Assembly: GCF_037113415.1 (NCBI RefSeq)
Contig: NZ_CP146608.1
Location: forward strand, 1,632,501 to 1,696,500
DNA length: 64,000 bases
Origin: Devosia sp. XK-2
Lineage (GTDB): Bacteria; Pseudomonadota; Alphaproteobacteria; Rhizobiales; Devosiaceae
Direction: 5' to 3'
Below are positions 20,366 to 64,000 of the stretch, one piece after another. The first letter of the stretch is position 1, and the number at the start of each line of letters is the position of its first letter. The translations under genes and the position numbers were made by a program. Below the pieces are notes generated by a model, which ran no database searches, had not been told where the DNA came from, and saw only the letters and a list, made by a program, of their open reading frames with translations.

Positions 20366-20474
20366 CCTCGTGGTTCGAGGCTCACTGCGTTCGCACCTCA
20401 CCATGAGGTCCTCCCACGAATCCTTATAGACCTCATGGTGAGGTGCTTTGGCAGCAAAGCCTCGAACCACGAGG
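20366..20474. repeat. Nested inverted repeat inside the trp operon
   Basis: Outer arms CCTCGTGGTTCGAGGC (20366-20381) and GCCTCGAACCACGAGG (20459-20474) are perfect 16-bp complements; inner arms at 20394-20410 and 20429-20445 are perfect 17-bp complements. The element can fold into one long hairpin of about 109 nt. It has the look of a palindromic intergenic repeat (REP/RIME-like), not of coding DNA. It lies between trpE and trpG, where it could reduce read-through or stabilise the upstream mRNA. Confidence 0.85.
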
Positions 20475-58657: not shown

Positions 58658-59653
58658 TTATGGCTCAACGCCTAACAGGCGGTTGGTAAAGTAACCCGAG
58701 AAGTCGGGCTTTTCCGCCACGACCACGCCATTTCCGTCCTTGAGCAGCCCGGCGCCGAAAAGAAAATTGCCCATCGCGTCCATCTTTTCCGGGTCGATGA
58801 CGCCGATCGTGCCGTCCTCGGCGCGAAGATAGTGACCATCGATCAGCGCCTGGAGTGAGGCCCGCACAAAGTCGCGGTCGAGCAGGGTATCCGCATTGGC
58901 CGCGACCAGAATGTCAGTGGCTTCGTCCGGATGTTCGACGGCATAGGCATAGCCGCGCCGGCTGGCCGAAATGAAGGCGCCGGCCGTGTCGGCGTGCTCG
59001 GCAAGATAGGCATCGGTGGTACCAAGAAAGTTGGTGTGCTGGTCGGGAACGCCATAATCGGCGTAGCGGAAGGCGCGCTGCGCCGGACCATCGCGCTCTG
59101 CCTTTATACCTTCCCAGGTATAGACTTCGAGGGTGAAATCGACGGCGCCATTGGCCAGTGCCTCATAGGCCGATGTGCCAAGGGTCACGGTTTCGAACGT
59201 GCCGTCCCCGCCATCCTGCCTGATAATGGTGCCGATCAGCGCCGTCTCCCAGCCGCTGCCGAAGCCGGCATAGATTTTTCCGTCCAGATCTCGGGGTGTC
59301 TGAATGTCGTCTCGATCGGCCTTGAACACCAGCCGCCCGGTCTCGGTTTGCACCAGCGCATAGGTCGCGACCAGATCAGCGCCGGCTGTGCGTTGGGTGA
59401 ACAGGCCGATAGAGCCCAGAATGCCGAAATCGGCCACGTGGTTGGCAACCAGCGTGGCTGCGGAGGTGTCCGTATAGGGCAGGATTTCGAGCTCGATGCC
59501 GGCCTCCTGGTAAAACCCTTTCGCCTGAGCGACGAATAGGCCGATGTGATTGGTGTTGGGCGTCCAGTCGAGCGCCACGCTTACCGGCTCGGCCAGGACC
59601 GGGCTGGCGCTCAAGGCGGCCATAAATATCAGGGAAGCGCGAAAATGCGACAT
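58658..59653 (-). CDS. thiY: NMT1/THI5-like (ThiY-type) substrate-binding protein
   Basis: 331 aa with a Sec signal ending ASPVLA. The mature start VSVALDWTPNTNHIGLFVAQAKGFYQEAGIELEI is the ThiY/THI5 signature for binding of thiamine pyrimidine precursors (FAMP/HMP). ATG at 59653 has AGAGGA at proper spacing; ATG at 59659 overlaps the upstream stop. Last gene of ykoF-permease-ATPase-SBP behind a TPP riboswitch. Confidence 0.88.
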   Translation of the reverse strand: MSHFRASLIFMAALSASPVLAEPVSVALDWTPNTNHIGLFVAQAKGFYQEAGIELEILPYTDTSAATLVANHVADFGILGSIGLFTQRTAGADLVATYALVQTETGRLVFKADRDDIQTPRDLDGKIYAGFGSGWETALIGTIIRQDGGDGTFETVTLGTSAYEALANGAVDFTLEVYTWEGIKAERDGPAQRAFRYADYGVPDQHTNFLGTTDAYLAEHADTAGAFISASRRGYAYAVEHPDEATDILVAANADTLLDRDFVRASLQALIDGHYLRAEDGTIGVIDPEKMDAMGNFLFGAGLLKDGNGVVVAEKPDFSGYFTNRLLGVEP

Positions 59654-59655
59654 GA

Positions 59656-60405
59656 TCATTCCTCTAGTGTGAGCAGGGTTTGCAGGATTTCGGCCTCTAT
59701 CGCGGAGAGAGCCTTGTCGCCCGCGGCGGGACGTGGATGAGGCAGCGGGATATCGTAATGGCGCGATATTCTGGCCGGGCGTGGCGAGAGCACATAGACC
59801 CGGTCGGACAGGAAAACCGCCTCGCGCACATCGTGGGTGATCAGCAGCACGGTCCAGTCGTGATGCACGCGCATGCTTGCAAGCCAGCGTTGCATCCTGG
59901 TCCTCGTTAGCGCGTCCAGGGCGCCGAATGGTTCATCGAGCAGCAACATGGACCTTTGCTGGGCCACCGTGCGCAGCAAAGCCACACGCTGGCGCATCCC
60001 GCCCGAGAGCTGGGACGGATAATGCCGCTCGAAGCCCGACAGGCCGAACTCAGCAAACAGGGGCAGGGCCCTTTCGCGGGCCGCCGCCCGGCTCATGCCC
60101 TGCACTTCAAGACCGAGCGTGGCGTTGTCGATGATGCGACGCCAGGGCATCAGCGCATCACGTTGCGGCATGAAGGCAAAGCGATGGCTATTCGCTTCGA
60201 GCGGGGCGCCGGCACATAGAATATCGCCGCCATCATGTCGAAGCGCGCCGGTCAATAGCTGCAATATGGTGGATTTGCCGGCCCCTGACGGCCCCAGGAT
60301 GGACACGAATTCGCCTGGGTGAACCGAAAGGCTGATGTCGGCCAGCACGGCGAGTTGATCGAAGCTCTTCGAGACGGATCTGAGTTCCAGTCGCGGCACG
60401 CTCAT
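59656..60405 (-). CDS. thiZ: ABC transporter ATPase, ThiZ-type
   Basis: 249 aa of the nitrate/taurine/ThiZ branch. Walker A LGPSGAGKSTILQL, Q-loop FMPQRDALMPWRR, signature LSGGMRQRVALLRT, Walker B MLLLDEPFGALD. The start MSVPRLELRSV overlaps the permease stop (ATGA); a longer upstream frame is not used. Powers uptake of the ThiY ligand. Confidence 0.9.
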   Translation of the reverse strand: MSVPRLELRSVSKSFDQLAVLADISLSVHPGEFVSILGPSGAGKSTILQLLTGALRHDGGDILCAGAPLEANSHRFAFMPQRDALMPWRRIIDNATLGLEVQGMSRAAARERALPLFAEFGLSGFERHYPSQLSGGMRQRVALLRTVAQQRSMLLLDEPFGALDALTRTRMQRWLASMRVHHDWTVLLITHDVREAVFLSDRVYVLSPRPARISRHYDIPLPHPRPAAGDKALSAIEAEILQTLLTLEE

Positions 60406-61196
60406 CGCTCGCGCGCCCCCAATCGCGCCCAGGGCATGGCCAGTCGTTGCAGCAGGACTGTTGTACCGAAAAGGCAAAGGGTGAGCGCTGCGCTGACAAA
60501 GACCGCGGCCAGGACCAGGTCCGGCCGGAAATTGTTCTTGGCGTTGAGGATATAGATGCCCAGGCCCCGGACGGCGCCTGCATATTCGGCGAAGATCGCC
60601 CCGACCACGGCATAGGTGATCGATATCCTGAGCCCGGCGAAGAAATAGGGCAGGGCGGACGGCAAACGAGCAGCCATGAAGATGCGCCAGCGCGACGCGC
60701 CCATGGAAGCAAGAAGCGACTCTATATCGCGATCGGTCGAGTCATAGCCCTGCACCAGGGCGACCAGCATGGGAAAAAACGTCACCAGCGCGACCAGCAC
60801 GATCTTGGGCATCAGACCGAAGCCGAACCAGAGCACCACAAGGGGCGCGATCGCCACCAGCGGCAGGGTCTGGGTGATGACCAGGACTGGGAACACGGCC
60901 CGCTGCAGTGGACGAAAGAAGTCCAGCAGCAGCGAGAACAGGAAGGCGGCGCCGAGCGAACAGGAAAAGCCGAACAGGGTGGCTTGCAGCGTCGCCAGCG
61001 TGTGGAGGGCCAGTGCCTCGCGCTGCTGGTAACCCTGAACGAGCACGCGCGACGGCGCCGACAGGGCCGTAGGAGAGATGCCCGACTGCCGGACATATAA
61101 TTCCCAGGCGAGAAAGAGGGCCGAGACGGACAGAACCGCCGGCCAGGCATGGGCAAACAGGCGGGCAACGCCCGACCAGGCTGAACGTATCGACAT
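60402..61196 (-). CDS. thiX: ABC transporter permease, ThiX-type
   Basis: 264 aa with about six helices and the cytoplasmic EAA-type loop (SLLASMGASRWRIFMAARLPSALP split around residues 165-190). It belongs to the SsuC/TauC/ThiX permease branch. Lies 14 nt after ykoF and overlaps the ATPase. Confidence 0.9.
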   Translation of the reverse strand: MSIRSAWSGVARLFAHAWPAVLSVSALFLAWELYVRQSGISPTALSAPSRVLVQGYQQREALALHTLATLQATLFGFSCSLGAAFLFSLLLDFFRPLQRAVFPVLVITQTLPLVAIAPLVVLWFGFGLMPKIVLVALVTFFPMLVALVQGYDSTDRDIESLLASMGASRWRIFMAARLPSALPYFFAGLRISITYAVVGAIFAEYAGAVRGLGIYILNAKNNFRPDLVLAAVFVSAALTLCLFGTTVLLQRLAMPWARLGARER

Positions 61197-62057: not shown

Positions 62058-62405
62058 ATGACCAAGCTGACCGGATTAGCCACCGCACTTCTCGTCGCAC
62101 TCGCGGCCGCCACTTTTCCAGTTTCGGCCAATGCTGCGCAGACCATCGAATATACGGGTCAGGATCTGAAAGTGGACACCGCCATAGCGATCTACTTCGC
62201 AGACGGCGACCGGCAATCGGAGCCTTACTATTTCTCGCTGAGCGGCCAGCTAACGCAAATGGTGATGTGCAAGGCCACCTTCGATTCGCAGAAAAGCCGA
62301 ATTCTGACCGCTTTGCGCAGCCACCCCGATTTCAAGCGGCGCACGCCTGTGGCCGCCGCATGCGCCCGAACCAATAAGACGCCGCTGAACCCGTTCGCGC
62401 GCTAG
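62058..62405 (+). CDS. Small exported protein of unknown function
   Basis: 115 aa. Signal peptide MTKLTGLATALLVALAAATF with a probable cleavage after SANA. The mature about 87 residues start AQTIEYTGQDLKVDTAIAIYF and contain two cysteines (MCKATFD and AACARTN) that could form a disulfide. I do not recognise the family. Divergent from ykoF; the start is the ATG that keeps a normal signal peptide. Confidence 0.6.
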   Translation: MTKLTGLATALLVALAAATFPVSANAAQTIEYTGQDLKVDTAIAIYFADGDRQSEPYYFSLSGQLTQMVMCKATFDSQKSRILTALRSHPDFKRRTPVAAACARTNKTPLNPFAR

Positions 62406-62476: not shown

Positions 62477-62510
62477 TTGACCCTACCATGTGGCAAGGTC
62501 GCATGGATAA
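62477..62510 (+). promoter_or_regulatory. MerR/CueR-type copper promoter
   Basis: TTGACC (-35, 62477-62482) begins a dyad GACCCTACC-ATGT-GGCAAGGTC (62479-62500) with 7 of 9 paired positions. This is the layout of CueR/HmrR operators, which lie in an over-long 19-bp spacer. The expected -10 position reads CATGGA, a poor match. It precedes the small Cys/His-rich gene and the multicopper oxidase, consistent with copper induction. Confidence 0.7.
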
Positions 62511-62534
62511 GGCGTATCTGGCTGCTGAGTGGGC

Positions 62535-62876
62535 ATGAACGCGATGGTGCGAATAGTGCTGACCGTATTGATGGCGCTAACGCTGAACGCCTCGATGGTC
62601 TTTGCCGCGACGACGCAATCGCCCGGGCACCATACCGAGGCCGTCACCGTCCGGCACTGTGACCATCATGGTCACCGCATGCAGATGTCAGACCATGCGC
62701 ATGCAGCCAATCTCGATGATTGTCAGCGGCAGGTTTGTCCCTCCTGCACAGGCCTGCCGCCGCTTTTGCCGGTCCTGTTGCATCAGGCTGAAACCAACGC
62801 AGTTGAGCCGTTTGCGCTGCGCTATTGGTCGCCGTCCTGGCGGCCGCCTCTGTTCCGGCCACCTATCCAAATCTGA
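62535..62876 (+). CDS. CutF-like (DUF2946-type) exported copper-responsive regulator of the oxidase
   Basis: 113 aa. Sec signal MNAMVRIVLTVLMALTLNAS with cleavage after VFA near residue 24. The mature part has a His/Cys cluster (C42 in RHCDHHGHRMQ), C63, C68 and C71 in DCQRQVCPSC, and a proline-rich end with two PP pairs (SWRPPLFRPPIQI). In Rhodobacter capsulatus CutF, and in a DUF2946-type uORF of Bordetella, such an exported nascent chain controls translation of the next copper gene. A hairpin covers its stop codon and the next ribosome site. GTG at 62529 is an alternative start. Confidence 0.75.
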   Translation: MNAMVRIVLTVLMALTLNASMVFAATTQSPGHHTEAVTVRHCDHHGHRMQMSDHAHAANLDDCQRQVCPSCTGLPPLLPVLLHQAETNAVEPFALRYWSPSWRPPLFRPPIQI

Positions 62877-62920
62877 ACCTTTTGACGGCCCTTGGGCCGG
62901 GTCCCGATTTTCAGATTTGG
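62867..62920 (+). promoter_or_regulatory. Hairpin joining the CutF-like stop codon to the oxidase ribosome binding site
   Basis: CCAAATCTGAA (62867-62877) and TTCAGATTTGG (62910-62920) are perfect 11-bp complements; the loop holds an inner GGCCC-TT-GGGCC hairpin (62887-62898). The left arm contains the stop codon (62874-62876). The right arm ends inside the GGAG ribosome site (62919-62922) of the oxidase, whose ATG is at 62930. A ribosome at the end of the small gene would open it. Confidence 0.8.
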
Positions 62921-62929
62921 AGTATTTCC

Positions 62930-64000
62930 ATGAGCACGCAGCTCTCTCGTCGCGCCTTTCTCGGCGCCTCTCTCGCCTTGGCCGGCAGCATCGCCCTGCC
63001 GCGCTTTGCCCTGGCACAACAGCCACCAGCCCGCACTTTGATTGCCGAGCGTCGTGTCATCGACGTGCTGGGCAGGCCAGCCAATGTTTTCGGCATCCGC
63101 GCCGGCAACGGGGGGCAGGGCCTGTTCCTGCCGGCCGGCGAACGCTTTCTGGTCGATCTGGAAAACCGGATCGGCGCCCAAACCATTATCCACTGGCATG
63201 GGCAGGTCCCTGATCCGGCCCAGGATGGTGTCTCCGACACCGGCTATGTCTCGCCGTTAGCCGACGGCGAAATCCGGGGCTTCGACTTTCCCGCGCGAAC
63301 CGGGACGCATTGGATGCACTCGCATCACGGGCTTCAGGAACAATCGATGCTCGCCGCCCCGCTGGTCGTCTATACCGCGGAGGACGAGGCGGCCGATATG
63401 CAGGATGAAACGGTCCTCCTGCACGATTTCTCGTTCCGCCGCCCCGATGACATCCTTGCAGAACTGACCGGCGGGCAGGTCGGTGGCCACGACATGGCCA
63501 ACATGTCCGGCGGCGAAATGTCCATGGGCGGTGGCATGATGATGGGCAGCATGGATCACGGGATGATGTCCATGGACCTCAACGACGTCGTCTATGATGC
63601 CTTCCTGGCCAATGATCGCACGCTGGACGATCCGCAGATCATCCGGACCGAGACTAATGGCAGGGTTCGGCTGCGGCTGATCAATGGGGCGACCTCGAGC
63701 GCCTTCTGGATCAATCTGGGCGATGCCGAAGCCACCGTCCTAGCCGTTGACGGCAATGACGCGGAACCGATCAGCGGCAATCGTTTTCCGATGACGCCCG
63801 CCCAGCGGCTCGACCTCCTGATCGACATGAAGGGCCGGTCCGTGGTACCCGTCCTGGCCCAGGTCGAGGGCCTGGCCGACCGCACCGGCATTATCATCGC
63901 GGTCAATGGCGCCGAGATCCCCAAAATCTCACGGATCGCGGAGCAGACCGAGGTTCCGATCGATCTGTCCCTGGAAGAAAAGCTGGTCGCTCGTCATCCC
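62930..64000 (+). CDS. Multicopper oxidase, CutO/CopA-like (3' end outside window)
   Basis: The first 357 codons are present. A Tat signal is clear (S-R-R-A-F-L-G-A at residues 6-13, hydrophobic stretch, cleavage near ALA-Q). Copper ligands are seen in IIHWHG (88-91) and THWMHSHHG (127-134). A Met/His-rich insertion (about 187-220, repeated MSM, MMM and HGMM) is typical of periplasmic Cu(I) oxidases. It would oxidise toxic Cu(I) in the periplasm. Translation probably depends on the CutF-like gene and hairpin just upstream. The type 1 and trinuclear C-terminal ligands lie outside the window. Confidence 0.92.
   Translation, partial: MSTQLSRRAFLGASLALAGSIALPRFALAQQPPARTLIAERRVIDVLGRPANVFGIRAGNGGQGLFLPAGERFLVDLENRIGAQTIIHWHGQVPDPAQDGVSDTGYVSPLADGEIRGFDFPARTGTHWMHSHHGLQEQSMLAAPLVVYTAEDEAADMQDETVLLHDFSFRRPDDILAELTGGQVGGHDMANMSGGEMSMGGGMMMGSMDHGMMSMDLNDVVYDAFLANDRTLDDPQIIRTETNGRVRLRLINGATSSAFWINLGDAEATVLAVDGNDAEPISGNRFPMTPAQRLDLLIDMKGRSVVPVLAQVEGLADRTGIIIAVNGAEIPKISRIAEQTEVPIDLSLEEKLVARHP

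Follow-up and report, generated by a model that had tools for sequence, protein, structure and literature searches.

How a nascent chain can sense copper in the periplasm is known mainly from work on one organism. For Rhodobacter capsulatus, PMC9973294 gives a model in which translation of the small protein CutF is coupled to its export, copper at the Cys site slows the Pro-rich tail, and a stem then opens so that the oxidase is translated; the published genetics of CutF-CutO are found in PMC9973294 and PMC8456105. According to PMC9973294, the Pro tail when fused alone causes no arrest, and another group holds that a demonstration of arrest by CutF, or by the related CruR, is still awaited (PMC10987492). 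CutF-like proteins are published as having low similarity to one another, and a published list of their genes counts 5,334, with some ahead of genes for something other than an oxidase. The survey of CutF-like genes in PMC9973294, in the portion available, reports and compares spacer lengths without a test of the stem in genes other than that of R. capsulatus. PMC9973294 also describes CopL as a cis-acting leader of a copper oxidase.

In this study we discuss a locus at the end of a stretch of 64,000 nucleotides from Devosia sp. XK-2, which as a whole is called the window below. We found no publication on this Devosia locus. The kind of regulator is already known, and what is added here is a test of pairing between the tail of the small gene and the ribosome-binding site (RBS) of the oxidase, carried across divergent CutF-like/oxidase pairs.

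The CutF-like gene, its oxidase and their surroundings

The features of the locus are collected in Table 1. The initial annotation had described, from the letters alone, a small gene for an exported protein with Cys/His clusters and a Pro-Pro-rich end, followed by a Tat-exported multicopper oxidase, and both descriptions proved right. The small protein has a DHHGH cluster besides the three cysteines and ends in WRPPLFRPPIQI (W-R-P-P-L-F-R-P-P-I-Q-I, then the stop), and the oxidase carries a twin-arginine signal together with Cu-oxidase domains. The likeness to cutFO, which had also been proposed, is borne out in that the main features fit the R. capsulatus model of PMC9973294.

Table 1. Coordinates of the features of the locus, in window positions
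Feature	Position	Strand	Details and basis
Promoter-like TTGACC (62477-62482) and CueR/MerR-like dyad ACCCTAC-CATGTG-GCAAGGT (62480-62499)	62477..62499	+	Read from sequence; tentative
CutF-like small exported protein, 113 aa	62535..62876	+	Stop TGA 62874-62876 included; sequence, orthologue alignment, profile matches below cut-off
Sec-type signal peptide, about residues 1-25, MNAMVRIVLTVLMALTLNASMVFAA	62535..62609	+	Read by eye
Putative metal site C63-X4-C68-X2-C71	62721..62747	+	Cys invariant in 10/10 orthologues
Pause-like Arg-Pro-Pro motif R108-P109-P110	62856..62864	+	Invariant in protein; third bases of Pro codons vary
Left arm of the 12-bp stem, UCCAAAUCUGAA	62866..62877	+	Encodes I111-Q112-I113 and the stop TGA 62874-62876
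Right arm of the 12-bp stem, UUCAGAUUUGGA	62910..62921	+	Overlaps the Shine-Dalgarno GGAG 62919-62922
Tat-exported multicopper oxidase, 481 aa	62930..64000 in window; complete gene 62930-64375	+	Start ATG 62930; twin-arginine signal MSTQLSRRAFLG; end 64375 beyond window; Pfam domains, copper-ligand motifs

The small protein is CutF-like by the published working definition (short, with signal peptide, terminal Pro-Pro, Cys motif and same-strand neighbour), and the likeness to CutF is one of architecture. It has fewer than 150 residues, an N-terminal Sec signal as read by eye, a Pro-Pro within the last 15 residues, and a central Cys motif that is a variant and not an exact CXXXC; its gene stands directly 5' of a Tat multicopper oxidase, with a stem that shields the Shine-Dalgarno site. 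A protein search at E 0.001 found no CutF paralogue elsewhere in the 3.80-Mb single-contig genome. Just 5' of the gene lies an uncharacterised exported ORF of 115 codons (62058-62402), without a Pfam or NCBIfam match. An ABC transporter cluster on the minus strand (58658-61196), with an NMT1/ThiY-like binding protein, an ATPase and a permease as read from the translations, likely imports a thiamine precursor or similar.

The oxidase matches Pfam Cu-oxidase_3 and Cu-oxidase and, as truncated by the window, gives a partial match below cut-off to copper_res_A. All four copper-ligand motifs of the form HXH are present, as is a Met-rich insert, and its relatives include solved laccases and multicopper oxidases. 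On its 3' side lies a convergent gene for a copA-type P-type ATPase, along with genes for a cation transporter and for a regulator like CueR.

The dyad ahead of the CutF-like gene, which TTGACC overlaps, has 20 bp, whereas two copA genes of this genome are preceded by CueR-like sites of 21 bp. Being one base short, it fails the exact 21-bp CueR-like pattern, so that a CueR site at this place is only suggestive, and transcriptional copper control is possible and unestablished. As for Devosia oxidases without CutF, those at loci L067, L068 and L070 are preceded by a cytochrome c-like gene, and CueR-like promoter elements stand directly 5' of the oxidase at L070, L069 and L073, in the latter two after a copA-type ATPase gene.

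The stem and its conservation

The initial annotation had noticed a perfect 11-bp hairpin with the stop codon in its left arm and its right arm running into the ribosome site. The placement is as described and the stem is indeed perfect, whereas its length is 12 bp: all 12 pairs are perfect, the TGA is within the left arm, and the right arm takes in the G-G-A of the oxidase GGAG. The spacer from the CutF-like stop to the oxidase start is 53 nt. The fold of 121 nt has z = -2.07, and a 12-bp stem joining the ORF tail to the region of the RBS appeared in none of 20,000 dinucleotide shuffles, the largest being 11 bp, once. On the whole, only two perfect inverted repeats of at least 12 bp with a short loop, this stem included, are present in the 64 kb. 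The window also has a nested long inverted repeat at 20376-20473, whose inner stem of 18 bp, GCACCTCACCATGAGGTC, is perfect and whose outer repeat lies around GTGGTTCGAGGC / GCCTCGAACCAC; it could be a terminator, a REP-like element or the end of a mobile element.

Orthologues were obtained with an alignment query, a single-protein query against the genome contigs having given no match. The orthologous pair is present in 9 of 75 Devosia genomes, one of them with two copies, and no orthologue was found in the order (Hyphomicrobiales) outside Devosia. The orthologues have 34-60% identity to the protein of the window, and residues C63, C68, C71, W102, L106-I111 and I113 are invariant in all 10 of them. 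H45 is invariant as well, the hydrophobic core of the signal peptide is invariant or near-invariant, and C42 and most of DHHGH are kept in 9 of 10. The tail FRPPI[QH]I persists in all Devosia orthologues. Two Pro-Pro pairs had been singled out at first, of which the second (P109-P110) is invariant while the first (P104-P105) is missing in 3 of the 10. The arms and the Pro-Pro ending, whose presence in close relatives had been set in advance as a check, are conserved across the Devosia orthologues: the stem is found in every copy, with one mismatch or bulge in several, and is imperfect in the second copy in D. subaequoris.

The left arm is at the same time coding sequence. At residue 112 some copies have Gln (CAA) and others His (CAT), a difference that the non-coding right arm follows in 9 of 10 copies. 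The two kinds of copy are intermingled on the oxidase tree, so that the Gln/His switch probably occurred more than once. The Ile codons of the arm and the stop never vary, and the adjoining Arg and Pro codons vary synonymously. Formal covariation is weak, with one pair changed on both sides and scores often reached by shuffles, the count of pairs being limited because most stem pairs never vary. That the Pro-Pro is kept merely as anti-Shine-Dalgarno sequence is rejected for the Devosia group, since its codons are not part of the stem and vary in their third positions. D. subaequoris has two diverged cutF-oxidase pairs, on contigs 22 and 21 (L003 and L011), both near contig ends; the stem of the second copy is mismatched, with CAT facing TTTTGG, and this copy is possibly a decaying one or a recombinant.

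On a wider scale, oxidase homologues were gathered at the level of the order (397 genomes), the genus (75 genomes) and the class (387 genomes). Among the loci examined from the order and genus sets, 35 have a Pro-Pro-ended Cys ORF just 5' of the oxidase, and the CutF-like loci of these sets were sorted by eye into 13 groups. In 12 of the 13, the ORF tail pairs on average better with the RBS of its own oxidase than with swapped RBSs, an advantage that is often modest inside single groups, and no partner swap among 20,000 reached the observed pairing sum with one locus per group. For 15 class-level loci the count is likewise 0 of 20,000 when all loci are taken, and 1 of 20,000 when each group contributes a single locus. 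Such pairing, kept across many divergent CutF-like groups, supports the stem as a general part of the mechanism, and the recurrence of an RBS stem in other CutF-like/oxidase pairs upholds the coupling that the initial annotation had thought likely. In one group of six loci (L042, L044, L045, L050, L055 and L057), the left arm takes in the Asp-Pro codons of the tail (CGATCC/GGATCG), so that the Pro-Pro codons are partly within the stem, unlike in the Devosia group.

Where an oxidase lacks a CutF-like ORF, the genes upstream of it are unrelated ones (CsoR-like, cytochrome c, copA-type), and at those examined we saw no RBS stem comparable to the CutF type. RBS accessibility differs only marginally between oxidases with and without CutF (p = 0.055). 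In plasmid records of Paracoccus yeei and Agrobacterium tumefaciens, where the gene table is incomplete, no CutF-like gene is listed directly 5' of the related oxidases.

A candidate copper switch and its rivals

The Devosia locus is probably a cis-acting leader gene of the CutF type, in which copper is sampled by the nascent chain and a pause at R108-P109-P110 exposes the GGAG of the oxidase. The small protein would be made and exported, and its Cys/His site would sample periplasmic copper; a pause of its export or elongation at R108-P109-P110 would then leave a ribosome covering the left arm, so that the stem could not form, the GGAG would be free and the copper oxidase would be translated. 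With quick passage of the ribosome the stem would re-form and the oxidase stay low, so that copper would raise rather than lower oxidase output.

The position of the ribosome was modelled with a footprint assumed to reach 15 nt beyond the P-site codon. Opening the oxidase start is predicted to cost about 14 kcal/mol with no ribosome present, 13.1 kcal/mol with P105 in the P site, 8.3 with R108 and 5.5-5.6 with P109. By this profile the second Pro-Pro is the first position with full effect and the first pair is not, and likely only the second pair matters. The median predicted cost in the order-level set falls from 10.3 to 5.9 kcal/mol at the Pro-Pro, while this effect of register is not repeated in the class-level set (8.3 to 8.3 kcal/mol). 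More tentatively, and as something that may well turn out otherwise, the sensor ORF could itself carry the anti-Shine-Dalgarno arm in its final codons, a layout that would have outlasted the divergence of arms and tails from one CutF-like group to another. In Hyphomicrobiales the Pro-Pro would then sit at the first point from which a ribosome, when paused, clears the arm. If true, FRPPI[QH]I would be a copper-gated arrest tail in its own right, different from both PPPRL and RAPP. With its short, defined stem and invariant tail, the Devosia locus provides a clean test of the ribosome pause site that is required.

The main rival is plain translational coupling, where any ribosome that translates the small ORF and terminates there unfolds the stem for the oxidase to start, the nascent chain senses no copper, and copper acts on transcription only. 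As the stop codon is inside the stem, ordinary termination would open it too, and by the model would do so equally well, the predicted cost at the stop being no different from that at the Pro-Pro (5.8 against 5.6 kcal/mol); a CueR-like promoter element upstream, of a kind seen also before related Devosia oxidases without CutF, agrees with such a scheme. Coupling alone, however, leaves unexplained why C63, C68, C71 and FRPPI are invariant in a fast-changing protein, and in R. capsulatus the Cys motif, the Pro tail and the Sec signal are each required with the stem intact, so we hold this reading unlikely. Much less probable is a control of opposite sign, in which copper relieves an arrest and shuts the downstream gene via Rho. 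It is brought to mind by CruR, a related small Cys-X2-Cys leader with a Pro-Pro end, but CruR heads a TonB-dependent transporter gene across a spacer of 162 nt, while in Devosia the spacer is far shorter, there is an RBS stem, and the gene that follows encodes a copper-detoxifying oxidase.

Equally improbable in our view is that the small protein serves as a periplasmic copper chaperone of the oxidase, the hairpin being incidental or a matter of mRNA stability only. Such a chaperone role was proposed early for R. capsulatus CutF (PMC8456105), whose stem is reported to influence mRNA stability; yet that CutF acts in cis only and becomes dispensable after mutation of the stem, and the tail/RBS pairing maintained across divergent sequences speaks against an incidental hairpin. 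A strong hairpin between two genes may also recall an intrinsic terminator or attenuator, which of all these is the least credible: an intrinsic terminator was rejected, there being no T-run and no terminator match at the hairpin, a riboswitch or other known RNA was rejected as no Rfam family matched, and the right arm is the ribosome site itself.

Relation to described leader peptides

Among known systems, the locus resembles CutF-CutO of the R. capsulatus cutFOG operon in having a small exported Cys protein, Pro-rich at its end and encoded immediately ahead of a Tat multicopper oxidase, a short spacer, and a stem over the oxidase Shine-Dalgarno site. It differs in its tail (LFRPPI[QH]I, against PEPEGPPPRL in R. 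capsulatus), in its Cys/His motifs (C-X4-C-X2-C and DHHGH, against C-X3-C), in a spacer longer than the one of about 40 nt there, and in having the stop codon inside the stem. In addition, cutG is absent after the oxidase, where the convergent copA-type P-type ATPase gene stands instead.

The best profile match is to CopL (NF033807), known from Xanthomonas and Stenotrophomonas before copA oxidase genes; the profile also matches 8 of 10 orthologues, while the Devosia protein scores 26.8 bits (E 6.7e-6), under the curated family cut-off of 40 bits. CruR of Bordetella pertussis (DUF2946, PF11162; PMC9426467) is likewise a small Cys protein with a terminal Pro-Pro that heads a copper operon. The Devosia protein matches DUF2946 with 16.6 bits (E 0.013), below the gathering cut-off of 23.7 bits, scores elsewhere in the genome being at chance level only, and CruR has a RAPP motif, a long spacer, Rho dependence and the opposite response to copper (PMC9426467). 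Finally, the arrest peptides of the SecM/ApdA type with RAPP motifs (PMC10951233, PMC10987492) share with the Devosia protein a C-terminal Arg-x-Pro-like motif that ends a leader ORF controlling the next gene, whereas the putative motif in Devosia is F-R-P-P and not R-A-P-P/G (or R/Q/H-A/G-P/G-P), and its target is a copper oxidase.
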